This document shows, piece after piece, positions 14,229 through 25,383 of a stretch of DNA of 53,020 bases. The notes beneath the pieces are model-generated. The model made no database searches. It had not been told where the DNA came from and saw only the letters and a program-made list of their open reading frames with translations. The first letter of the stretch is position 1; every line of letters begins with the position of its first letter. Source of the DNA: a virus. A program made the position numbers and the translations under genes. The stretch covers positions 1 to 53,020 of IMG/VR virus record IMGVR_UViG_3300025101_000033. One strand, given 5' to 3'.

Positions 14229-14657
14229 CTATCCTTCTTCTCCTCTCTCCTGCCACTCATAGGACGTTTTGTCTTCTTTGATTGGCCCACCTTTTGCCCA
14301 CGTTCTACATGATCTTGCGCTGTGGCATTTAAAATGATGCATCCAACAATAGCCTAGGCGACCATCATCATCAGAAGTTACGCCGGGCATACACGCATCC
14401 ATTCTGGGACTTATGTCAAAAGCAACACAATTGCTACAATTTGATTTTTTGGCAGCTTTCTCAGTTGTATTCCAGAAATCTGCTATGTCTTTCCAGTAAT
14501 CACCGGGCTCATCAACATTGAGAGGGCCGTATTGAATGTGCTCAGCTTTAATCGAAGCGTTACGATTTTTAGTATTGAGCTTCAAGTCTTTTGCCGCTGG
14601 TGGGCAAACCATCTCTATTGCTTTTTTAATTGCCTTGACTATTCTAATTCTAATCAT
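14229..14657 (-). CDS. Cys-rich protein, possibly Fe-S binding
   Basis: 142 aa. MVCPPAAKDLKL at 16-27, then SNCSNCVAFDISPRMDAC, LGYCWMHHFKCHSARSCRTW: seven Cys in the C-terminal half, spaced in a way that recalls high-potential iron-sulfur proteins, and a family I remember from marine phages. No export signal. Function not established. The start overlaps the upstream gene by 8 nt; AGGAG is 10 nt upstream. Confidence 0.75.
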   Translation of the reverse strand: MIRIRIVKAIKKAIEMVCPPAAKDLKLNTKNRNASIKAEHIQYGPLNVDEPGDYWKDIADFWNTTEKAAKKSNCSNCVAFDISPRMDACMPGVTSDDDGRLGYCWMHHFKCHSARSCRTWAKGGPIKEDKTSYEWQERGEEG

Positions 14658-14864: not shown

Positions 14865-15134
14865 CTATCTCGTTACCATTTGCTCGATCCGACCTAGAGA
14901 CCCTTTCATGTACTCGATGTCCTTTTCGATTCCAATTATTTGTCTTGCGTTGTCGTCCGAGCCTTGGAGCTTTTTTTCTAAGGTTTCGATAACCTCCTCT
15001 GCATCTCCAAGATCATTTCTCAGTTCAGCAACTTCTACGTTCATGTTCCATACCCATCCGGCAAGAGGGATTACAAGCATCCCAAGTCCCATCTGAATCA
15101 CTTTCCATACGTCATCTTTTGTTAGTGTAGCCAT
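14865..15134 (-). CDS. membrane-anchored coiled-coil protein (XhlA- or i-spanin-like)
   Basis: 89 aa. One transmembrane helix at about 13-31 (IQMGLGMLVIPLAGWVWNM) is followed by heptad-rich coiled coil (VEVAELRNDLGDAEEVIETL) and a final IEKDIEYMKGSLGRIEQMV, the style of phage XhlA haemolysin-like and inner-membrane spanin proteins. Likely a lysis accessory, though the endolysin is 11 kb away. GGAGGAC precedes ATG 15134. Confidence 0.75.
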   Translation of the reverse strand: MATLTKDDVWKVIQMGLGMLVIPLAGWVWNMNVEVAELRNDLGDAEEVIETLEKKLQGSDDNARQIIGIEKDIEYMKGSLGRIEQMVTR

Positions 15135-15144
15135 GGTTGTCCTC

Positions 15145-15966
15145 CTACCATTTCTTGCAAGACCAATATCTTGCCGTCTTCTTATCTTTTGCTGTGTGAC
15201 ACTTGTGTCGTGCTCTGAATGATTTTCTTCGTTTAGGGTTTGACTTTTTGATTTTCATTTTTTTGTCGCCAAAGTTAATCTTCTTTGCTTTGACTCGACC
15301 CTTCTTATCTTTCTTACCTGAGTTAACATATACTTTGAACTTCTTTACGTCACCACGAGTTGGCTTGTTTAGTTGAACGGTTTTGCCTTGATACACGGCT
15401 TCGCCCATAAGATCAGGGCATCCGCAAGATGCTTCTTGTAGTGTCTCAAACAGGCATGCACCGCAGGCATAGCCGCCCTCTTCAAGGGTCGCATCTTCAA
15501 ACATTTCAAGAATTGATTCGTCACCTTCGTACATCAAACCTTCTCTCAAGTCTGGGTATAGATCGTCAACATCGCCGGGATCATCTGGTCCCATGCTAAT
15601 GCCTCGGTCTGCATAACCAGGCTTCATTCCTAGGGCAGACATTCGATCTTGCGTTAGTCGATCTTGTTTTGCTCGTTCTGCTGCATCTTCGGCATCACGT
15701 CTATCTTGGTCGTCGATGTCTCTTTGGGTTCTCTCGGCTTCAAAGCTTGCCAGTTCTTCGGGAGTATAGAACTGAGATTTATCGAGGTTTTTCATGTCCT
15801 CGTATGCCTTCACCAGTTCCTCTTCCGTGGCCTTACCTTGCGATCTGAGCTTCTTAACGCGGAAAAATTCGTCGCGAAGAATCTTCTCTGCTTCCATCTG
15901 TTGCAGAATACCTTCGTCCAAAGTCTCTATAATTATTTTTTTTAATTTTTCTTCTGATAATTTCAT
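15145..15966 (-). CDS. head-targeting-like protein with basic Cys-containing C-terminal module
   Basis: 273 aa. Residues 1-20 (MKLSEEKLKKIIIETLDEGI) match the shared N-terminal signal with I-x-E. A long charged helix (25-110) and an acidic middle follow, with Cys-rich ACGACLFE and ASCGCPD (168-184). Residues about 191-273 form a strongly basic module: KPTRGDVKKFKVYV, KINFGDKKMKIKKSNPKRRK and SFRARHKCHTAKDKKTARYW ending SCKKW. I recall this module from T4-like cyanophage and marine phage proteins. Inference: carried into the head and binds DNA. The start overlaps the previous stop by 4 nt (ATGA). Confidence 0.85.
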   Translation of the reverse strand: MKLSEEKLKKIIIETLDEGILQQMEAEKILRDEFFRVKKLRSQGKATEEELVKAYEDMKNLDKSQFYTPEELASFEAERTQRDIDDQDRRDAEDAAERAKQDRLTQDRMSALGMKPGYADRGISMGPDDPGDVDDLYPDLREGLMYEGDESILEMFEDATLEEGGYACGACLFETLQEASCGCPDLMGEAVYQGKTVQLNKPTRGDVKKFKVYVNSGKKDKKGRVKAKKINFGDKKMKIKKSNPKRRKSFRARHKCHTAKDKKTARYWSCKKW

Positions 15967-16355
15967 TTCTTTTTTCTTCCATCCTTTTGTCGCACATTTT
16001 TAGCCTTACCTTTTCTATTAGGGTTCGGATCCTTCTTTCTCTTTTTGGCAGCTCTTTTATCTCTCTCTTTTTTGCTTAACTTCGCCCTATCATCGGCATC
16101 TCTACAGTATGGCTTGGTCTTTTGACCAGGTTGTTTCGCGCATGGCTTTCCGTCATACTTGCCACCGGTTTGTACCCAGCCGCCACCTTTAAACCAATCT
16201 CTCAAGCTATAACCTTTACTCTTTGCAGATTTACCATCTCGCTTGCCGCCTTTCTTTTTCTTCTTTTTCTTGCGTTTCTTCCTCTTCTTCTCGTCAAGGA
16301 CCGCAGACAGCTCTTCTTTGATGATTTGCTCTAGTTGTTCTCTGGTAATTTCCAT
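15963..16355 (-). CDS. head-targeting-like Lys-rich protein with DUF5872-like motif
   Basis: 130 aa, about one third Lys/Arg. The signal MEITREQLEQIIKEELSAVL (1-20) leads directly into a polybasic run (23-45), then GYSLRDWFKGGGWVQTGGKY and GKPCAKQPGQKTKPYCRD (48-86), which resembles the small DUF5872-type motif as I remember it, followed by another basic tail. Cleavage after the signal would free an almost purely basic protein suited to neutralising packaged DNA. The element ACTATTTA lies 22 nt upstream of ATG 16355, and AGGATT serves as Shine-Dalgarno. Confidence 0.85.
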   Translation of the reverse strand: MEITREQLEQIIKEELSAVLDEKKRKKRKKKKKKKGGKRDGKSAKSKGYSLRDWFKGGGWVQTGGKYDGKPCAKQPGQKTKPYCRDADDRAKLSKKERDKRAAKKRKKDPNPNRKGKAKNVRQKDGRKKK

Positions 16356-16377
16356 TTCAGTAATCCTATCTTGGAAC

Positions 16378-16385
16378 TAAATAGT
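16378..16385 (-). promoter_or_regulatory. putative phage late promoter element ACTATTTA
   Basis: Minus-strand GACTATTTA lies 22 nt before ATG 16355, in the gap after the 390-aa gene. The same octamer precedes other cargo and tail genes in the window; no sigma-70 -35 box accompanies it. Confidence 0.5.
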
Positions 16386-16388
16386 CTT

Positions 16389-17561
16389 TTATTTCTTCTT
16401 TTTGTTCATCGCAGCCGTCTTTCTTTTAGAGGCTTCTTTTCGTTTCTCAGCATACTCGTACGCTTTCTTGAGTCTTGCTTTGGCTTTTGGATCTTTGGCG
16501 TTTTTGTATGCTGCTCTGGATCTCTGATGTATGAGGTTGATAATCTGTGATTGGCGCTTGTGTGACTTGGATTTAAAACTAGCCTTTGAAAGAGTGTCTT
16601 TAACGTCTTGAACTGATGAGAACTTGACGGATACCGTGTCAGTTGGATCTTCGTCGGTGTAAAGTCTACGACCAGAGTCCTTTGGCTTCTTGCCGGTGCC
16701 CTTCTTTGGGTCTCCTTCGACGACTTTCTTTTGCTGTGTTTCCAAGCCCTCTTCTGCTTTCACACAATTACGATAGGTTCGACCAAACATCTTCTTGGTC
16801 TTTCTCTTCTTGTGAGTCTTGTATCCTTTCTGGCATCTTTCTTGTAGAACAACTTCGAGTTCTTCTTTGACAATCTCATCCACCATGGCCGCCTGTTGGT
16901 TTCGAGGCCCCAACCATTCTTCATATTCTTCTAGACAGTTTCCTCTTCGCTGAGGAATTGTGCTTAATCGACCACCGTCGCTATAGCCGGCTATAAATTC
17001 TTCTCCATCTTCGTTGGTGTAAATTCGAAATTGAATAGTGACTGTTAGTAAACCAAACATTTCACCTTCAACCCACTCTTGTCCCGGAACCTGTGCTCCT
17101 TCAGTGTACAAACCTAAGAGTTGTTCATCAGAGAAAACTTTATTTTTAGACCCAATGGTGTGCCTTATGTTCCAAATGTCAGCTGTGATTGGCACATTCA
17201 TTATTATAATCTTGAGTATCTCACTGTCATCTTCGACAAAGATTGAATCACTTCCAAAAACCGGTTGCGACATGAATTCATAGAGCTTAACCGGTTCTTC
17301 TGTCCATGCGTCTGGATCGTCCAGTGAAGGAATAAACTGAGGATTTTGAATGCATTCTGGTGCCGGCATGCCTTCTTCGTTTTGACCCAAAGAATGTAAT
17401 AAATTATAATCAGAACCACATCCAGTAGCCAGTGCTCCGCCTGTGGCTGCCATCATTTGACAAAACTTTCGCCTTGTTATTTCTTTAATGGCACTCTCTA
17501 GTTTGACATTATGGATCTCTTCTAGAATAATTCGACTCAATTCCTCTCGGGTTAGTTCCAT
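16389..17561 (-). CDS. chimera: two head-targeting-like signals, Tat/lipobox-like stretch and basic module
   Basis: 390 aa. Residues 1-15 (MELTREELSRIILEE) are the shared signal. Residues 28-48 read ITRRKFCQMMAATGGALATG then Cys48: twin arginines, hydrophobic core and a Cys, as in a Tat lipoprotein signal. An unassigned, mostly beta domain follows (about 60-210). At 226-241 (MVDEIVKEELEVVLQE) a second copy of the targeting-type peptide appears, followed by RCQKGYKTHKKRKTKKMFGR and YRNCVKAE, another small Cys/Lys module. The C-terminus is Lys-rich. It looks like two cargo proteins fused. It is 4 nt downstream of the 208-aa gene. Confidence 0.85.
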   Translation of the reverse strand: MELTREELSRIILEEIHNVKLESAIKEITRRKFCQMMAATGGALATGCGSDYNLLHSLGQNEEGMPAPECIQNPQFIPSLDDPDAWTEEPVKLYEFMSQPVFGSDSIFVEDDSEILKIIIMNVPITADIWNIRHTIGSKNKVFSDEQLLGLYTEGAQVPGQEWVEGEMFGLLTVTIQFRIYTNEDGEEFIAGYSDGGRLSTIPQRRGNCLEEYEEWLGPRNQQAAMVDEIVKEELEVVLQERCQKGYKTHKKRKTKKMFGRTYRNCVKAEEGLETQQKKVVEGDPKKGTGKKPKDSGRRLYTDEDPTDTVSVKFSSVQDVKDTLSKASFKSKSHKRQSQIINLIHQRSRAAYKNAKDPKAKARLKKAYEYAEKRKEASKRKTAAMNKKKK

Positions 17562-17565
17562 ACCA

Positions 17566-18192
17566 TTATCTTCCGTAAGTTTTGCAAGGGTTCATGCCAC
17601 ATCCGCAGTTTTTGACCTCTTTGACTATCTTAATCGTTTTTTTATCTGATAAGATGTAGTCACCATCCTTATGTTGACCTACGTTTGGCATTCCATCTAG
17701 AGCTTTTACGATCTCGTCTTTCATTTCTTCTCCAAACTCTTTCAAAAATGGATCCATACCGGCAGCGCCACCTTCGTCGCGAAGAATCTTTTCAATCTTC
17801 TTTGGGTCAACATGAACAAAGCCTTTCTTCGCCATGTCTGTATGGTCTTTTTTGACATTGGCAACATGCTTCTTGCCAGTCTTAGGGTCAAACATGTCGT
17901 GCTTAGAAAACTCTTCGTTTAGTGACTCGTTTTTCTTTGACTTGTTGCCCCAGTTGGCAGCACCAACCTTGCGACATTTGACAAGCGCACCGGAAGCATA
18001 AGCGGAAGGCCAGACGTCATAGCGAGACTTTACCTTGTGATAACAAGCGTCTTTCTTCTTAGCTTTTGCCTTCTTTTTCTTCTTGCGTCTCTTCTTTTTG
18101 GCGGCTTTTCGCTTCTTGCCTTTTTTCTCATCAATGACGGCATCAACCTCTTCTTTGATGATTTTGCGTAATTCTTCATTCGAAATTTTCAT
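17566..18192 (-). CDS. head-targeting-like Lys-rich protein with Cys module
   Basis: 208 aa from ATG 18192, chosen by AAGGAG 8 nt upstream and by the family signal MKISNEELRKIIKEEVDAVI; a longer frame adds only 11 unrelated residues. A polybasic run (23-47) leads into DACYHKVKSRYDVWPSAYAS and GALVKCRKVGAANWGNKSKK (48-87), a motif I recall from marine phage proteins. The remainder is mixed, with a conserved-looking tail (EVKNCGCGMNPCKTYGR). ACTATTTA lies 21 nt upstream. It heads the four-gene basic-cargo cluster. Confidence 0.85.
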   Translation of the reverse strand: MKISNEELRKIIKEEVDAVIDEKKGKKRKAAKKKRRKKKKKAKAKKKDACYHKVKSRYDVWPSAYASGALVKCRKVGAANWGNKSKKNESLNEEFSKHDMFDPKTGKKHVANVKKDHTDMAKKGFVHVDPKKIEKILRDEGGAAGMDPFLKEFGEEMKDEIVKALDGMPNVGQHKDGDYILSDKKTIKIVKEVKNCGCGMNPCKTYGR

Positions 18193-18212
18193 GTCAAAGT
18201 CTCCTTCTGACA

Positions 18213-18220
18213 TAAATAGT
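18213..18220 (-). promoter_or_regulatory. putative phage late promoter element ACTATTTA
   Basis: Minus-strand TTACTATTTATG, 21 nt before ATG 18192, lying between the J-domain gene and the 208-aa cargo gene. Confidence 0.5.
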
Positions 18221-18236
18221 AACAAATGAATAAGAA

Positions 18237-18848
18237 TTATAGGTTTAAGCCAAACAGTTGCCTTAAAAATCTTTTTATAACATTATCTTTTTGTTCTTTT
18301 GTTTGGGCTTCATGGAAGGCCCAAGAGTATGAAGATTTTTCTTTTTTAATTTCCTCATCGACCCTTTTGATTTCCAACAACAAGCAGTCGATAGCCTCAC
18401 TATATTCTCCAATGAAAATGTTGTGCTTGTCTACGATGTCAAACAAGTCTCCCCACTTCCCTTCTTCTTTCGCTAAAGTTGCTTTTTTAAACGATTCTGT
18501 GTATTCGTACTTTCTCGGGTCACCGTCCTTAAGTAAGTCGGGGTGCAACTTTCTGGCGACTTGTCTGTAGATTTTTTTGAAATCATGGATCTTGTCTCTC
18601 TTCTCTTCTTCGATTACAGATTTTCTTAATTTGGTAGTTTGATTATCAATGAACATCATGTCAACTTTTCTAGAGTTTTTTTCGTTTAATTTGTGGAGGT
18701 CGACATTATTTTCTGCGCACCATTTCCTGTGGTAAATGTCAAACTCTAAATGAACATCTTTCAAAGTTTCTCTAACGATTTGTAATTCAAACTTTTTGCT
18801 GCGAAAGTTATTTAAGTGTTTTAAGAATTGCAACCTAGACTTCATCAT
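18237..18848 (-). CDS. J-domain (DnaJ-like) protein
   Basis: 203 aa. The J-domain core is DFKKIYRQVARKLHPDLLKD with the Hsp70-stimulating HPD at residues 102-104, followed by YTESFKKATLAKEEGKWGDL as helices III-IV. A charged helical N-terminal region (about 1-85) precedes it and a basic helix ends the protein. It probably recruits host DnaK to a phage process such as assembly or replication-complex remodelling. There is no Gly/Phe or zinc-finger region. Two adjacent ATGs (18848, 18845) follow GAGGAT; the second has better spacing. The start overlaps the upstream gene by 14 nt. Confidence 0.82.
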   Translation of the reverse strand: MMKSRLQFLKHLNNFRSKKFELQIVRETLKDVHLEFDIYHRKWCAENNVDLHKLNEKNSRKVDMMFIDNQTTKLRKSVIEEEKRDKIHDFKKIYRQVARKLHPDLLKDGDPRKYEYTESFKKATLAKEEGKWGDLFDIVDKHNIFIGEYSEAIDCLLLEIKRVDEEIKKEKSSYSWAFHEAQTKEQKDNVIKRFLRQLFGLNL

Positions 18849-19740
18849 TATCCTCTGCTACTTTATTATAAGTAGTCCCAGTCAGTATGGATTTCGTCGG
18901 TCTTTGAATTGTCATTCTCCTAGAACTAGAAATAAATGTGGTATACTCTTCCCACGACCTTATGTTGAAAAAGTTATCTATTTTTAATTCATAAGCGTCA
19001 TCTAGATTCAAGGGAGAAAATACCTTGTCAACTCCAAACCAGCGAGCAGACCATCTATCGGAGGGATTTAGATTAATGTTTTGCTCTGGTGTCGTACCTG
19101 GAACTCTAATCCCTGTTCCTGTTCTTATTACACGACGGAACTCAAGCCAATCATTTTTATCAAAAGTGAATGATGTAAAGTACCCATCTTTGACATTCAT
19201 TCCGTGCGAGGAAACAAAGAAATTCTTTTCACTTACGATGCTTTTCCTGTGTCCTCTCAACAACGTTGGGTCAAAATAGGACTGAGGGAACGACACATAA
19301 TATTTTGAGGGTGTTGCCCACTTAGTCAAATTACTTGTAAGCTTGAAAGCAGTCAGTGCACCGTGTATGACAGACCATGACAGGCAGTCTATTTTATCTC
19401 TATGCTTCAGAGGAACAGGTACGTAGAAAATAGGTATTCTTCTGCGAGATTCGTAAGCATTAGGTGATAGATTTCTATTGTTCCAAACAGGATCCCATGC
19501 CCAGTCGCCTATTTTCTTCCTGATTATAGGGGCTAGATCATCGTTTGCAACGATCCAAATAGATTTGCAACCTGCCCATGCACACTCCACGACAGACGCC
19601 TCTATGAGGCTGTATCCGCTTGCTATGGGCATCAAGCAATCAGGCCACGGTTGATTGAAATCATAGTCTTCGTGTCCAGCTACTGGTATCAATCCAACCA
19701 AGTTTTTTCTTTCGACATGAGTTTCTTCCACATTGTCCAC
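18835..19740 (-). CDS. putative nucleotidyltransferase-like (GT-A fold) protein
   Basis: 301 aa. The opening LVGLIPVAGHEDYD, then PWPDCLMPIASGYSLIEASV and AGCKSIWIVANDDLAPIIRK, follows the order of NTP_transferase-type enzymes (substrate loop, PxxLxPI, strand ending in a nucleotide-contact acidic pair). The Gly-rich loop is degenerate. Start: ATG 19770 has no Shine-Dalgarno, whereas GTG 19740 has AAGGAG 5 nt upstream, so I prefer GTG; either way it overlaps the upstream gene by more than 50 nt. Substrate unknown; it might modify nucleotides or sugars. Confidence 0.7.
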   Translation of the reverse strand: MDNVEETHVERKNLVGLIPVAGHEDYDFNQPWPDCLMPIASGYSLIEASVVECAWAGCKSIWIVANDDLAPIIRKKIGDWAWDPVWNNRNLSPNAYESRRRIPIFYVPVPLKHRDKIDCLSWSVIHGALTAFKLTSNLTKWATPSKYYVSFPQSYFDPTLLRGHRKSIVSEKNFFVSSHGMNVKDGYFTSFTFDKNDWLEFRRVIRTGTGIRVPGTTPEQNINLNPSDRWSARWFGVDKVFSPLNLDDAYELKIDNFFNIRSWEEYTTFISSSRRMTIQRPTKSILTGTTYNKVAEDNDEV

Positions 19741-20444
19741 GGCTTCTCCTTTTTTTGCTCGAGATTCCATGCTTGCTCAAAAGTCATCTTCTGGTTCAGC
19801 TCTGGTAGTACGAATCTCTTTTCAAAATCAAATTTAACTTTTTTATAGTATCTCTTATCTCCACGTTGCCATGAAAACTCACCTTTTATGTCATTTTTCT
19901 TAAACATTCTTTGAGTTTTTATTCTAACAATTCCATTGCCATACGATGGATCTAGTAACTCATCATCGGACATTCTCGAGATAACAGTGAAGTCTTTGAC
20001 TATCTTGGACACATTGCTTCTTCTTGTCTCGTAAAAAAAGATTCTTTTACAAAAGTCCTCTTCTGATTCAATGATCATAGTGTCATGAGGTTTACCAGCC
20101 CTCCAATAAAAATCATCAAAAATCTGATTCATACCTGTCGGTTCGCCATCAAAAATTTCAAGCTTTTCATCGATAACAATTTTTGTATTACCCTTCGTTA
20201 TCAACTCTTTGTTGTCTATTCTAAAAGATGAAACATTGCCACCATGTAACAAAAGAGACGTGAGGCTCATGGCAAAAATTAAGTTTGGAATTAGTTCTCG
20301 AGCACTCTGCACATTAAACTCCGAAAAGTCAATGTTATCAAACTCGTCGGAAAGGTGATGGAAAACAAAATCGTCAAGCAGTATGCATTTTTGTTGTGTT
20401 CTCCATGCATACATTAGCGAAGCGGCAGATTTGCCGATTATCAC
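19689..20444 (-). CDS. hypothetical protein coupled to the nucleotidyltransferase-like gene
   Basis: 251 aa, GTG start at 20444 overlapping the upstream stop by 4 nt (GTGA). The N-terminus MIIGKSAASLMYAWRTQQKC could open a nucleotide-binding fold; FDDFYWRAGKPHDTMIIESE and FFYETRRSNVSKIVKDF are distinctive but unrecognised. Its 3' end overlaps the nucleotidyltransferase-like gene, suggesting a joint function. Confidence 0.75.
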   Translation of the reverse strand: MIIGKSAASLMYAWRTQQKCILLDDFVFHHLSDEFDNIDFSEFNVQSARELIPNLIFAMSLTSLLLHGGNVSSFRIDNKELITKGNTKIVIDEKLEIFDGEPTGMNQIFDDFYWRAGKPHDTMIIESEEDFCKRIFFYETRRSNVSKIVKDFTVISRMSDDELLDPSYGNGIVRIKTQRMFKKNDIKGEFSWQRGDKRYYKKVKFDFEKRFVLPELNQKMTFEQAWNLEQKKEKPWTMWKKLMSKEKTWLD

Positions 20445-21226
20445 TTATTACTCTCTGGTCCAAATCTAGAAAAGAAGTCACTGATGTCTGCAGCAGAAGG
20501 TAGTCTATCGTTTTGGGGGACAAAGTCTTCTGGTGGTTCCGGTAATTCTTCTGGTAATTCGTCAAATTTAATTTTCGGATTTAATGCAATGGAATCTAAA
20601 CCAATTTGACGCGTGTTTGTTATGGCACTTTCTAATTCGTTTGACTTTTCATTTCCCAAAAACCAATCATCCATTTGACCGAAAAAAGCAGCACCAACAC
20701 CCGGATTACCTAAGTATCCAGTGTTGTTCATCGACCCTTGAGAGATAAATCTTTTGAAAAATTCGCCAATATTTTCTTTCATCAAGTGTAATTCTCTGAT
20801 TGCATTTTGTTGCACAGCGCTTAGGTTTTCTAGGTCTTTGTTGCCCCGCAGAGATGAATAGCCGGCAGAGTCAACGATAGATTTTAAGTCTTTTAGGTAT
20901 AACTCTGCTTTTATTTTTACAATTTCATTTTCTAATTTAGGGAGATGTCTGCGCCAATGAATCAAGTACCCTCTGCGTAGTTTATTGTAAATTTCTGATT
21001 GTTCATCTTCTGGTAGTGTAGAGACTGCTTTTGAGATTAGTTCGCCAAATTTTTCTTCGATGATGTCTTTTGTTTCGTTAGCGACAATGTCATCGCCTAC
21101 AAAGTGTTTTATAAAAACATCCACAGAACCTGGTTCAACACCTGTCAAGAGGTCGTAAAGTCCGGCAAATCTTCCTTCGTTTAATGTGAACTTTTTCCAT
21201 TCATTCAGAATCTTCTTCATCGACAT
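20441..21226 (-). CDS. 261-aa protein with head-targeting-like N-terminus
   Basis: Begins MSMKKILNEWKKFTLNEGR: a short amphipathic peptide with LNE sites, closer in style to the T4 internal-protein leader MKTYQEFIAE than to the K-L-T-x-E-x-L group. The body is helical (IVDSAGYSSLRGNKDLENLS) and the C-terminus Pro/Glu-rich (DELPEELPEPPEDFVP). No known domain. GGAG lies 8 nt before ATG 21226. It overlaps the upstream SH3-like gene by 26 nt. Confidence 0.75.
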   Translation of the reverse strand: MSMKKILNEWKKFTLNEGRFAGLYDLLTGVEPGSVDVFIKHFVGDDIVANETKDIIEEKFGELISKAVSTLPEDEQSEIYNKLRRGYLIHWRRHLPKLENEIVKIKAELYLKDLKSIVDSAGYSSLRGNKDLENLSAVQQNAIRELHLMKENIGEFFKRFISQGSMNNTGYLGNPGVGAAFFGQMDDWFLGNEKSNELESAITNTRQIGLDSIALNPKIKFDELPEELPEPPEDFVPQNDRLPSAADISDFFSRFGPESNK

Positions 21227-21452
21227 TTTTTAAACTCCTAAGTCCCTCTTCCGGAACGTTTTCAAATCTTTGACCATTAACGTATACTTCGTAAGCCCAA
21301 AACTCTATAAGAATTTTATCAGATGTAGAAAGATGAACATACATCAGTCTGGCCTTGTCTGAAATAATTCCTACGATGGGCTTTGTTGGAAATATACTAT
21401 AAATAGGCGATTGTGAGTTGACTAACACAAGATCGCCTAAATTAAACTTCAT
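21201..21452 (-). CDS. small SH3-like barrel protein
   Basis: 83 aa from ATG 21452, whose ATGA overlaps the thyX stop; a longer frame would lie within thyX. FNLGDLVLVNSQSPIYSIF, VGIISDKARLMYVHL and ILIEFWAYEVYVNG give the barrel strand pattern found in four other small proteins of this phage. The tail is acidic. Confidence 0.7.
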   Translation of the reverse strand: MKFNLGDLVLVNSQSPIYSIFPTKPIVGIISDKARLMYVHLSTSDKILIEFWAYEVYVNGQRFENVPEEGLRSLKNVDEEDSE

Positions 21453-22150
21453 TCGCGAAGTTCTCGGTATGCTCCCACAGAGAAAGGCCAAATCTCTGCT
21501 GCAATGTCTAGACATGCTCTAGCAACCTGCTGTATTTCCCATTGTGCTCCTTCGTGCAGTCTGAGATCAATAAACTTCAAAAGGTTGGATAGGTTGACTG
21601 TTCCATAGTATTTTGCGTACAAGTTTTGTGGCAAGACTCCTCTAGCCTGCTCTCGACAAACACCAGCCTCTATCAACTTGTCAAATAAATCTAAAGACAT
21701 GTCATGCCACTTTGCTACTGCCTCAGTTGATTTAGAATAGGTATCCAAGAACAAAGGGGTAATAGTTGGATCTTGTTGATCTTCTAAGTTCGACGCTTGT
21801 CTATTGCTCTTGTGTTGGGTTCTGTATGTCGGTGGCTCATAGAATCTCAAGTGGACCTCAGTGTATCGTCTAGAAATTTCATTGTAAGCCCATGTTCTAT
21901 GTCTCATGTGTTGTGAGCGTACAAACATAGGCACCTCGAACAAAAACGTGATCGAATTGTGCTCAAATGGTGACGTATGCTTGTGTTGTATAAGATACTT
22001 AATTAGTTTTTTGTCCCTTGGAGTCAATGGTTTTGTATTGTCTTGGCCAAAAGAAACACGCGCAGCATTAGCAATCATTTTATCATCGCCTACGTGCTGT
22101 ACATAGGAAACTTTACCAATACCATCTCCGTATAACTCTACTTCTTTCAT
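21449..22150 (-). CDS. thyX: flavin-dependent thymidylate synthase ThyX
   Basis: 233 aa, typical length. The ThyX signature RHR-x7-S is at residues 83-93 (RHRTWAYNEIS), followed by RRYTEV; KHTSPFEH (57-64), REQARGVLP and DLRLHEGAQWEIQQVA are further family segments. It uses N5,N10-methylene-THF and reduced FAD to convert dUMP to dTMP, and works with the phage dUTPase and ribonucleotide reductase. The start overlaps the upstream stop by 4 nt (ATGA). Confidence 0.97.
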   Translation of the reverse strand: MKEVELYGDGIGKVSYVQHVGDDKMIANAARVSFGQDNTKPLTPRDKKLIKYLIQHKHTSPFEHNSITFLFEVPMFVRSQHMRHRTWAYNEISRRYTEVHLRFYEPPTYRTQHKSNRQASNLEDQQDPTITPLFLDTYSKSTEAVAKWHDMSLDLFDKLIEAGVCREQARGVLPQNLYAKYYGTVNLSNLLKFIDLRLHEGAQWEIQQVARACLDIAAEIWPFSVGAYRELRE

Positions 22151-22908
22151 CTATCCGCCTTTCGATGTACAAAAAATTCACCCCTACGAGACCTAGCCTC
22201 AGTTGCATTTTTGGGAGGAACTGGTACCATCATTGATTCCATAATTGCAGAGAATCGTTTTTCTGGTTGTTTTCTCTCCGGACCTTTAGCTAACTGTGTA
22301 TAGAATTCTTGCTCAAGATCACCAAACTTAAAGTTATGGAAAGTCATGTCAACAGAGCCATCTCTCTTGAGATAAAAAGCATCAGTCGATTCTGCATCTG
22401 GTGGTTTAAAAAAGAAACTATCTTGATTGTACTTTGCAGCAAGTTCCATACCTAGATTTTTTAATTCTTCAATTCCTAATCCGGGTCGACCTGGTTGCGC
22501 CATAACTAGAAATCCGGCCTCTGGTTCATTGGTGTCAACTCTAGATTCTTCTCCAGTGTCAGGATTAACTAATTTTTCTTTGTAGCCGCCCATCACTGGT
22601 GTGAAACCAAATCCGGCTGCTCTTATCTCTTGTTTCATTGATTCTCGATTTTGTTCGTTTCTTCCTGCTTGCTCTTCGGCTGCTCCAGGAGGGCAGGGTT
22701 CTCCATAAGCCAATCCAAGCTCCGCTTGGCATGTTCTATCAGGTGTAATTACAATAAAACCTGCTTCCATGTATTTTCCTTGAAGCGCTGTCATGGTCGT
22801 CTCATCTAAACGATGCATCTTGTAAGAAGACTTTGAAGTTTTGAAGATTGTTTTCTCTTCGATAACTTCTAAAATAATTTTTTTTAATTTTTCACTTGTC
22901 AGTTTCAT
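22147..22908 (-). CDS. head-targeting-like protein with DUF3293-like domain
   Basis: 253 aa from ATG 22908, where the family signal MKLTSEKLKKIILEVIEEK begins (GGGAG 9 nt upstream); an ATG seven codons earlier lacks a Shine-Dalgarno. The middle (AGFIVITPDR, then NRESMKQEIRAAGFGFTPVM, EPEAGFLVMAQPG and AAKYNQDSFFFKPPD) resembles DUF3293, a small domain of unknown function. ACTATTTA occurs 39 nt before this ATG. Candidate virion-packaged protein. Confidence 0.75.
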   Translation of the reverse strand: MKLTSEKLKKIILEVIEEKTIFKTSKSSYKMHRLDETTMTALQGKYMEAGFIVITPDRTCQAELGLAYGEPCPPGAAEEQAGRNEQNRESMKQEIRAAGFGFTPVMGGYKEKLVNPDTGEESRVDTNEPEAGFLVMAQPGRPGLGIEELKNLGMELAAKYNQDSFFFKPPDAESTDAFYLKRDGSVDMTFHNFKFGDLEQEFYTQLAKGPERKQPEKRFSAIMESMMVPVPPKNATEARSRRGEFFVHRKADR

Positions 22909-23182
22909 CGTTGATTCTCCCGTAGACATAGTTTTCTTTAACGACGTAAATAGTCTCGAAATCTCCTTTTATTTCCTGAATTGTGCTTCTTTCGACCACA
23001 ATAGTATCTCCTGGGAGCAAGTCTATCGTGCAATCTTCAGACATGTCTAAGATCTCTCCTATTACATAAGGGGATTTTGGCGGTTGATATTCGTCGGGCA
23101 TAATGAACAAAGGATCTTCTTTGTTTTGCTCTTCTTCTTGTGGCTTTATCCACAAATGTTTATTAAACGGTTTAAATTCCAT
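22892..23182 (-). CDS. GroES-like co-chaperonin (gp31-type)
   Basis: 96 aa from ATG 23182 (GGAG 5 nt upstream). FKPFNKHLWIKP (3-14) matches the first barrel strand of GroES; a polar mobile-loop-like segment contains the hydrophobic LFIM (25-28), the place where GroES has IVL and T4 gp31 III; then PYVIGEILDMS, LLPGDTIVVERSTIQEI (56-71) and IYVVKENYVYGRI. Length equals GroES. It probably pairs with the phage GroEL at the left edge or replaces host GroES on host GroEL. It has its own promoter at 23218-23246. Confidence 0.75.
   Translation of the reverse strand: MEFKPFNKHLWIKPQEEEQNKEDPLFIMPDEYQPPKSPYVIGEILDMSEDCTIDLLPGDTIVVERSTIQEIKGDFETIYVVKENYVYGRINDETDK
22947..22954 (-). promoter_or_regulatory. 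putative phage late promoter element ACTATTTA
   Basis: Minus-strand GAGACTATTTACG inside the 3' end of the GroES-like gene, 39 nt before the DUF3293-like cargo gene's ATG 22908. It is coding here, so weaker evidence than the intergenic copies. Confidence 0.35.
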
Positions 23183-23199
23183 GTTGTCTCCATAATAAA

Positions 23200-23232
23200 A
23201 AAACGTGTTACACATATAGTATAACACGTTTT
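23200..23232 (-). promoter_or_regulatory. 33-bp perfect inverted repeat over the groES-like promoter
   Basis: Arms AAAACGTGTTA (23200-23210) and TAACACGTTTT (23222-23232) are perfectly complementary around an 11-nt spacer. It covers the -10 box and start region of the promoter. On the minus strand the downstream arm runs into seven T, so it could be a terminator for the upstream gene; alternatively it is an operator. Confidence 0.6.
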
Positions 23233-23246
23233 GTAGTCAATGTCAA
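23218..23246 (-). promoter_or_regulatory. sigma-70 promoter for the groES-like gene
   Basis: TTGACA (23246-23241), 17-bp spacer, TATACT (23223-23218), extended TG; 36 nt before ATG 23182. Confidence 0.78.
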
Positions 23247-23251
23247 GTAAA

Positions 23252-23446
23252 TTAGTTTTGTTCGTGAGATTTTTTAACTTCTTGAACTTGTGTCCGGACA
23301 TCCTTGATTTGCTTTGACGCCTCCATAAGAACCTTTCTCGCTCGAGGTGCAGCAGACTTATAGCCATAAGAACCATTGTCAACCTTGTCAAGATCATCGA
23401 GTGCATTTTGCAAAGCTTCAATTACTTTTTCAATTTCTTCTCTCAT
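23252..23446 (-). CDS. small helical protein resembling histone H1-like Hc1
   Basis: 64 aa. EEIEKVIEALQNALDDLDKV, then SAAPRARKVLMEASKQIKDV and RTQVQEVKK, repeats the two-helix layout of the Hc1-like family (acidic helix, loop with Gly/Ala, then ARxxRKxLxE). Possible DNA-binding or architectural role. AGGAG precedes ATG 23446. The last gene before the GroES-like promoter. Confidence 0.65.
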   Translation of the reverse strand: MREEIEKVIEALQNALDDLDKVDNGSYGYKSAAPRARKVLMEASKQIKDVRTQVQEVKKSHEQN

Positions 23447-23454
23447 AATTTCTC

Positions 23455-25383
23455 CTAAAATATTTCACAGGCTCCGCCGGCACATGCGACTTCGCCACTT
23501 AAGTCAGTTTCATCTGTAACTTCTGTAATTAGATCTAAATCAACGTTTTTTACCAATTCAAGCATTCTTTCGTAAGTTTCCTTGTCGCAATCTTCAAAAG
23601 GTGCCTGCACATATGTGCCACCGTCATAAGGTAAAACTGATAATCCGTTGTATACACCTCTGTTGTTCCACATCCAATCACCAACAGTATCCCATTCATC
23701 ATCTTTGATTGTAACGGTTGCCGAGACATTGTGGGTATTGTTTCCGTTTTTGTGTCCGGACTTGATCCATTCATTTGAAACCTTTTTTACTCTCTCGAGC
23801 AAATCTAGGGCTGTTTCGTGGCGCGTTATTGCCCCTTCAGGAGCTTTTTGAGGAACAGATAGGATAGCAGTATCATGTGGTCGGAAACGGCAGTCCTCGA
23901 CCAACTCAGGCAGGTTCTGAGCGAGATAGTGATAGATCGCCTCATTCTTTCCTACGCGTAATCTGCGTATATAATAGTCGTTATGCCACGCATGAATACC
24001 ACTTGATGTACCAAGAGTCAGAGATGTAGTTCCTGCTGGTTTAACACATGTTTGTCGTGCTGCTTGGTTAATACCTATTTGCATTGCAACTTGGCGATTC
24101 ATCTTTGATACTTCCAAAGAGGCCTCGGTCATGTCTAACTCAAGAACACCGCCGGAGGCAATACCAGTCATTGAAACACCTATTAAAGCATCCTTTTCCG
24201 TAGTGCGTTGCCATACAGGTCTGAGATAATGGAAATCTGTGTATGATGCTTGAAGTGTGCCAATAAAAGAGGCGGCTCGAGATCGGGCATTTAAATCTTC
24301 TTGATCTTTTACATCCGAGACATTAATCTCAACTAAGTTACAAAATTGAAATGGACGAAGACCAATTTCACAGCAAGGGTTACAGCCCCATTCTTTATCA
24401 TTGGAAAAATAAAATCCGGGTTCACCTGACCGTGATTCCTCGACTCGTTTCCAAATGTTTTTGAATGTTGCTTTATCAATCCTGTGTCTCATAATAACTA
24501 CAGAGTTGTTTGCTCTTCCTCGTTGAGGGTTGAGTTCCCACCACGATCCTGCTTTCGCTCCGAGCATCTCTTCGTCATCAGCCGAGAATAAAGAAATAAG
24601 GGCAGCGCGGCGAATACCTCCAGCGAGAACCGCATCCGCAATGTGGCAGATGATGTCATGCACCTCAATAGGAGTGAGTTTGTCACCATTTTCTTTAGCA
24701 TCTAAAATTCCCTCTACTTTAACTAAACATTCTCTCAGTGGTTGTGGTCCCGGCGCCTTTCCGCCGGATGTAACTAGTCTTGCGCCTTTCGGACGGATGT
24801 CCGAGAAATCAAATCGTAATTTGGAGGTACCTTTGAAATAAGACTGGATCAATGCTTTCACTGCATCTGCCCATCCCTCAATTGAATCTCCAATTAAAAA
24901 TCTTCGAGTTCTTTTCGAAGAAGGTCTGTGAATCTCGGGAAGTTTTTCAACGTGATGATGTTGAACAGAATAGCCAACACCTGTTCCGCCTAATAGCAAA
25001 AACATGATCTCGCCAAATACTCGTGGGTCATCAGCAGGTGCGAACGCACAATTAAAGATACGATTCGGAGACACCTCGATTGGTTTTCCTCCAAACTGCA
25101 TGCTTCGCATCGATGGTAGCACCTTCTTGTCAAACACAAACTTGTAGTTCTCACGAATCTCTTGCTCGAGTTGTGGAAACTTTTTGATGTGCATTTCCAT
25201 GTTACGAGTTACCAATTCGTACCAGTTTTCTCTTCGTTGCTTATCCTCTAAGTAACGAGCGTATTTCATGTGAACGGTTATGTCCGACAAGATTTCCTTT
25301 TCTAGATCCATTTTTCTGTTCCTGTGTAGTAAATTTTTCATGTATTGCTTTTCTTCTAAAGTATAAATTTGCGATAATTCCAT
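23455..25383 (-). CDS. nrdJ: class II (adenosylcobalamin-dependent) ribonucleotide reductase
   Basis: 642 aa from ATG 25383; an in-frame TTG four codons earlier is not needed. It is monomeric NrdJ/RTPR-like: SMRSMQFGG, FNCAFAPADD (first redox Cys), GGTGVGYSVQ, NPCCEIGLRPFQFCNLVEIN (radical finger-loop Cys and NxE), CVKPAGTTS and a C-terminal redox pair CAGGACEIF. It reduces ribonucleotides without oxygen dependence or a separate radical subunit, but needs B12 from the host. The gene follows the helicase after a 1-nt gap and supplies dNTPs for replication together with dut and thyX. Confidence 0.94.
   Translation of the reverse strand: MELSQIYTLEEKQYMKNLLHRNRKMDLEKEILSDITVHMKYARYLEDKQRRENWYELVTRNMEMHIKKFPQLEQEIRENYKFVFDKKVLPSMRSMQFGGKPIEVSPNRIFNCAFAPADDPRVFGEIMFLLLGGTGVGYSVQHHHVEKLPEIHRPSSKRTRRFLIGDSIEGWADAVKALIQSYFKGTSKLRFDFSDIRPKGARLVTSGGKAPGPQPLRECLVKVEGILDAKENGDKLTPIEVHDIICHIADAVLAGGIRRAALISLFSADDEEMLGAKAGSWWELNPQRGRANNSVVIMRHRIDKATFKNIWKRVEESRSGEPGFYFSNDKEWGCNPCCEIGLRPFQFCNLVEINVSDVKDQEDLNARSRAASFIGTLQASYTDFHYLRPVWQRTTEKDALIGVSMTGIASGGVLELDMTEASLEVSKMNRQVAMQIGINQAARQTCVKPAGTTSLTLGTSSGIHAWHNDYYIRRLRVGKNEAIYHYLAQNLPELVEDCRFRPHDTAILSVPQKAPEGAITRHETALDLLERVKKVSNEWIKSGHKNGNNTHNVSATVTIKDDEWDTVGDWMWNNRGVYNGLSVLPYDGGTYVQAPFEDCDKETYERMLELVKNVDLDLITEVTDETDLSGEVACAGGACEIF

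Follow-up and report, generated by a model that had tools for sequence, protein, structure and literature searches.

Can a protein that is packed into a phage head carry a second, hidden address that would send it through the export system of the next host? This question is raised by a 390-aa open reading frame in a linear 53-kb IMG/VR virus record (IMGVR_UViG_3300025101_000033), the whole 53,020-nucleotide stretch of which was analysed and is referred to here as the window. The window encodes a tail sheath, a tape measure protein, a DnaB-type helicase and a DNA polymerase, and is therefore part of a contractile-tailed phage; none of the isolated phages matches its 10-kb stretch from 15000 to 25000 at the DNA level. 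An earlier note on this locus had described a capsid-targeting peptide followed by a twin-arginine (Tat) signal with a lipoprotein-like cysteine, together with a second copy of the targeting peptide at Met226, and had proposed that proteolysis in the head makes the export signal nearly N-terminal. The open reading frame that it named is present and intact on the minus strand (Table 1), its product is a two-part fusion, and the observation as a whole can be partly confirmed. The gene is accessory, since it is missing entirely from L024, a close relative in which the neighbouring 311-aa gene is 89% identical.

Table 1. Features of the 390-aa protein and of the neighbouring genes (positions are those of the window).
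Feature	Position	Strand	Evidence
390-aa ORF, intact: CTS, Tat-lipoprotein-like N-domain, fusion joint, basic C-terminal module	16392-17561, stop 16389 (16389..17561 with stop)	minus	
Capsid-targeting sequence (CTS), residues 1-19 (MELTREELSRIILEEIHNV), [LI]xE motifs ending at E14 and E15	17505..17561	minus	CTS HMM, 22.3 bits
I-K-E27, predicted site for the prohead protease, separated from RR by two residues	17481..17489	minus	L/I-X-E motif of T4 gp21 (PMC9026906)
Tat-signal-like stretch, residues 28-47 (ITRRKFCQMMAATGGALATG)	17421..17480	minus	TIGR01409 positions 1-20, 17.1 bits, cut-off 16.7
Cys48, end of lipobox ALATGC	17418..17420	minus	pattern match
Acidic N-domain, residues 49-225, without detected homologue	16887..17417	minus	homologue searches
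Fusion joint, residues 226-241, with the remnant of a CTS (second half) and the predicted site L-Q-E241	16839..16886	minus	CTS HMM, 5.6 bits
Basic C-terminal module, residues 242-390 (RCQKGYKTH...), pI ~10.3	16392..16838	minus	related viral loci
Neighbouring CTS protein, YHKVKSRY module	17566..18192	minus	CTS HMM, 35.7 bits; phrog_727
Neighbouring CTS protein, SLRDWF...NPNRKGKAKN module	15963..16355	minus	CTS HMM, 32.9 bits; phrog_727
Neighbouring CTS protein, RRKSFRARH module	15145..15966	minus	CTS HMM, 32.9 bits; phrog_7595
203-aa gene with HPD motif, neighbourhood marker for the CTS-Tat genes of relatives	18237..18848	minus	

In T4, CTS propeptides of 10–19 residues bring proteins into the head, and the gp21 protease cleaves after L/I-X-E (PMC9026906). 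To recognize such propeptides in the window, a CTS HMM of 20 positions was built from 13 N-termini of the window and its relatives, with the 390-aa protein excluded from the seeds. The N-terminus of this protein scores 22.3 bits (E=8.8e-6), as compared to a maximum of 11.3 bits in 1000 shuffled versions, and it is therefore a member of the CTS set, which bears out the capsid-targeting peptide of the earlier note. Five other window proteins reach 29.9–35.7 bits, all five being seeds of the HMM, and the 390-aa protein thus possesses an N-terminal propeptide that is common to otherwise unrelated phage proteins. A second N-terminal type, MKxxxxxW[RK]xF[LI]xE, occurs on a window protein (20441-21226) and on ~25 proteins of differing length and sequence from related loci, and it is probably another capsid-targeting peptide.

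The propeptide is accompanied by candidate end sites, as [LI]xE motifs end at E14, E15 and E27. The predicted site nearest to the Tat-like signal, IKE27, lies just beyond the range of 15–25 residues for which trimming had been proposed earlier. At the DNA level, the pattern [LI]xE-x-T-R-R-x-F is observed once in the window as compared to 0.03 expected occurrences. An S77 prohead protease (PF03420) of the gp21 type is encoded in eight of the ten large related records examined, and its gene was not found within the 53-kb window fragment.

Directly behind E27, the protein matches the Tat-signal model TIGR01409, and the alignment starts at model position 1, which falls on residue 28. This match reaches 17.1 bits in the genome search (cut-off 16.7) and 19.1 bits for an isolated 33-aa peptide, but only 13.2 bits, under the cut-off, for the full-length protein; the full-length E-value of 0.092 refers to a search with 18950 models and amounts to ~5e-6 for one pre-named model. 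The arginines are residues 30–31 and are followed by K32 and an uncharged run from F33 to S50, which provides the expected combination of an arginine pair and a hydrophobic stretch, and Cys34 takes the position usually occupied by Leu. The twin-arginine signal that had been placed at residues 28–48 is thus recovered by the model over residues 28–47, with the reservation that the full-length score falls short. The ALATG motif followed by Cys48 was found again by pattern match, AATGGALATGC48 fitting the lipobox pattern. In lipoprotein precursors, the lipobox cysteine is usually located at residue 15–35. Cys48 would be at position 33 after trimming at E15 and at position 21 after trimming at E27, and by this rule of thumb solely the trimmed forms, not the full-length protein, fall within the range. 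The residue after Cys48 is Gly, with which lipoproteins are usually sorted to the outer membrane in E. coli, and by analogy a lipidated window protein would be directed to this location.

The same arrangement recurs in related phages. A search of TIGR01409 in 106 related phage records, which had partly been picked via CTS-Tat genes and their neighbours and hence do not provide a census of frequency, gave matches in seven records and six distinct proteins, namely the window protein, L039 (identical in two records), L042, L257, L260 and L256. Each of the six has a CTS, and in each an [LI]xE motif precedes RR by 2–3 residues, with the junctions RLEE^ALTRRQFL (L039, L042), RLNE^AISRRQFL (L257), RLEE^ALSRRQFLK (L260), VIEE^MKRRDFLK (L256) and AIKE^ITRRKFC (window), whereas the base rate of [LI]xE at that place before RR pairs is 5.3% in ~1000 proteins from the same loci. 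The surroundings of the gene were readable for the window, L039, L257, L260 and L256, and in each of these the CTS-Tat gene lies downstream of the 203-aa HPD gene, either directly or within ~3 kb; at the L042 locus, the 311-aa neighbour gene is present and the 203-aa gene is absent. No CTS-Tat protein was found in 48 other protease-carrying records, nor did six isolated cyanophages and pelagiphages yield one, and a scan for the CTS-LxE-RRxF DNA pattern yielded, among the matches listed, three in frame, none of which is Tat-like.

Five of the six TIGR01409-positive proteins form a second family that is unrelated to the window protein. L042, L257 and L260 are 48–83% identical to L039, and the four proteins share invariant W8, R9, F11, L24, E26, R30, R31, F33 and L34, with a dN of 0.047 and a dS of 1.7 over codons 1–47 of the closest pair (L039 and L042). 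Their TIGR01409 scores, including that of L256, range from 18.4 to 21.8 bits, and Pfam TAT_signal matches five of five members (best E 1e-6), L039 remaining under the cut-off of that model. The lipobox cysteine is absent from this family and is present in the window protein only. The mature domain of L256 is a distant homologue of the family (hhalign 97%, E 8e-11), and this protein retains the Tat signal and the homologous cargo behind another CTS type than the L039 group, whose own type (MKxxxxxW[RK]xF) is common to some 25 other proteins. Because the window N-domain is unrelated to the second family and L256 has a different CTS, the sequences point to two cargo lineages that are independent of each other and to three combinations of a CTS with a Tat signal. 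The Met that opens the Tat signal of L256 (IEE^MKRRDFLK) seems to be a retained ancestral start Met, and the simplest reading would be that CTSs were added onto proteins that already started with a Tat signal. Homologues of the second family were found neither in bacterial genomes nor in isolated phages, its structure model (pLDDT 63) matched nothing significant in the PDB or BFVD, and a PDB sequence search gave a weak match to MJ1213 (E 0.006).

The acidic N-domain of the window protein has no detected homologue in IMG/VR, GTDB genomes, INPHARED, the PDB or ~60 related records, where two of the contig-collection scans used exact 8-residue words by which only close relatives are detectable. 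RR and Cys48 of the window lineage are accordingly seen in this one sequence, and a single-sequence AlphaFold model was uninformative (pLDDT 32). A Pfam DsbC_N match was rejected as weak (E 0.11–1.5), and shared ancestry of the N-domain with the second CTS-Tat family was rejected as well, since the Tat stretch alone aligns (probability 1.2%).

The second part of the fusion is a basic module, the pI of which was computed on residues 244–390. Relatives of this module are found at 21 viral loci, the long matches being mostly 70–78% identical, and its N-terminal partners there are kinase-like proteins, an HExxH-motif protein, a relative of the ORF at 14229-14657, or none, these domain names being read from the sequence and not from a family search. 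Where the module is encoded by a stand-alone gene, a full CTS may directly precede it, for example MNITKEDLQRIIEEELEAVLDE^KCQKG. At the window joint the second CTS half alone remains (IVKEELEVVL, scored at 5.6 bits by the CTS HMM), and it leads to LQE241^RCQKG. The occurrence of a full CTS before the module in relatives and of a half in the window identifies the Met226 element as a fusion-joint remnant; hence, what had been taken for a second copy of the targeting peptide is a degraded half-CTS, and the clearer feature of this region is the LQE241^RCQKG junction. An internal translation start at Met226 is unlikely, since inspection of the sequence revealed no clear ribosome-binding site. Cleavage at E241 would separate an acidic protein with a pI of ~4.3 from a strongly basic one with a pI of ~10.3 and a net charge of +30. 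In L002, L003, L008, L012 and L009, kinase-like or HExxH-motif proteins are joined to the basic CQKG module via an LxE-type joint, as if these fusions might also be packaged head cargo.

The explanation that we prefer, and to which we would give an even chance, is that the 390-aa protein gives rise to two head-internal proteins and has a Tat signal that is exposed by cleavage. The CTS (residues 1–19) would bring it into the assembling prohead, where a gp21-type protease would cut after the [LI]xE sites. Cleavage behind E27 would place a Tat-lipoprotein signal (ITRRKFC...ALATG-C48) at the N-terminus of an acidic cargo of residues 28–241, and a cut after E241 would release the basic module 242–390, which is probably DNA-associated. 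Upon infection, the mature proteins would reach the new host together with the DNA, and the Tat signal would direct the ready-made, folded cargo into the inner membrane or through it, with possible lipidation of Cys48 there. The Tat system transports folded proteins post-translationally, and it would therefore suit a cargo that arrives complete in the cytoplasm. As to the task of the cargo, superinfection exclusion and an early take-over of the envelope are guesses.

The core idea of the earlier note, that is a CTS, cleavage, a newly N-terminal Tat signal and export after injection, appears to be partly supported and has gained independent backing. It is strengthened because an unrelated second family displays the CTS-[LI]xE-Tat order with conserved RR and LxE, because its distant member L256 pairs a different CTS with a Tat signal and homologous cargo, and because relatives encode the S77 prohead protease. 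Counting against the preferred explanation are the sub-cut-off Tat score of the full-length protein, Cys34 in place of Leu and the N-domain without detected homologues, and also the missing lipobox cysteine of the second family and the absence of the protease gene from the window fragment. These sequences suggest that some phages may inject ready-made proteins that are then exported by the new host to its own envelope. In its general form, which we put forward with slightly less assurance, this would be a two-step address code of marine T4-like phages, in which the CTS loads the head, the protease uncovers the Tat signal and export precedes phage gene expression.

It is also conceivable, although we consider it unlikely, that a Tat signal with an extended n-region makes up the entire N-terminus and is used in the phage-producing cell for late export, the CTS-like part then contributing little or nothing to packaging. 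Tat n-regions of 10–30 residues are known, a signal with such a long n-region could work uncleaved, and the arginine pair at residues 30–31 remains close to the N-terminus. However, residues 1–19 are the same CTS as on five unrelated window proteins, [LI]xE is found closely before RR in six of six proteins, and a mere n-region does not explain why homologous cargo has two CTS types before the Tat signal. A marginally less probable possibility is that the hydrophobic stretch is a membrane-binding or conduit-forming segment, which would serve an ejected protein in DNA entry or the prohead at the membrane. A simple membrane segment would need no RR, yet in the second family neither RR nor FL varies, and this family is matched by two curated Tat models that are independent of each other; nevertheless, no clear signal-peptidase site or lipobox is seen there behind the hydrophobic stretch, and ejected proteins of other phages work at the membrane, as reported for P22 (PMC8402733). 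Finally, a chance resemblance to Tat on an ordinary CTS-bearing internal protein is improbable in view of the ~5e-6 chance for this pre-named model, the lipobox at the right distance and the same arrangement in a second family from the same genomic neighbourhood, even though the window protein is a lone sequence without detected homologues, an under-threshold full-length score and Cys instead of Leu in its motif.

Returning to a precursor with a cleavage-exposed Tat signal, the arrangement would be that of a T4-type packaged protein with a second, hidden address label. The T4 internal proteins IPI-III and Alt similarly have an N-terminal CTS common to unrelated cargo, but PMC9026906 describes them as reaching the host cytoplasm and mentions for none of them an export signal behind the CTS. 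Further likenesses to IPI-III and Alt are the L/I-X-E removal (predicted here), the basic product (the C-terminal module in the window) and the gp21-type protease (here in relatives). With bacterial Tat signals and Tat lipoproteins, the phage proteins share RR-x-F, the uncharged hydrophobic stretch, the matches to curated models and, in the window protein, the lipobox cysteine; unlike those, the signals described here are encoded by phages and follow a capsid-targeting propeptide that bears a predicted site for a phage protease. The ejection proteins of the giant phages SPN3US and phiKZ and of P22 and T7 are likewise head proteins delivered along with DNA, and we know of none that has a Tat signal. 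Those of T7 and P22 differ in that they themselves form the conduit, and those of the giant phages are cut by a gp21 relative (PMC5694885).

A full-text literature search, which left preprints and most subscription papers outside its coverage, returned no paper on twin-arginine signals together with capsid targeting. Superinfection-exclusion lipoproteins, such as T5 Llp, are small phage-encoded envelope lipoproteins that are made in the infected cell or lysogen; they are possible analogues of the cargo, but they are exported by Sec and are not virion-delivered. Some phage head proteins are known to function in the host cytoplasm; to our knowledge, a route by which ready-made proteins reach the periplasm or membrane via the host Tat system has not been described. 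If the proposed mechanism is true, head maturation would be a switch between two targeting signals, and a phage could alter the host envelope very early after entry, for instance against superinfection. The CTS-[LI]xE-RRxF order offers a searchable sequence signature.

The genes around the 390-aa ORF display additional features. The YHKVKSRY...WPSAYASGALVKCRK module of the adjacent CTS protein is found in 365 isolated phage records, mostly of marine cyanophages, and is annotated as hypothetical protein only, among the matches listed. The basic Cys-containing modules of four neighbouring window genes (15145-18225) occur in the same order in one 526-aa ORF of record G018 (L041:13034-14611), where [LI]xE-like sites separate them, and this looks like a head polyprotein in the G018 phage that corresponds to separate CTS genes in the window phage. 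The 203-aa gene has a conserved KLHPD motif that resembles the one of J-domain proteins. A 231-aa CTS protein at the L256 locus, encoded ~1055 bases beyond the 203-aa gene, contains an internal hydrophobic, membrane-like segment (EAGGLLLFAAALAFPKILQWLG), which makes it a possible further envelope-directed head cargo.
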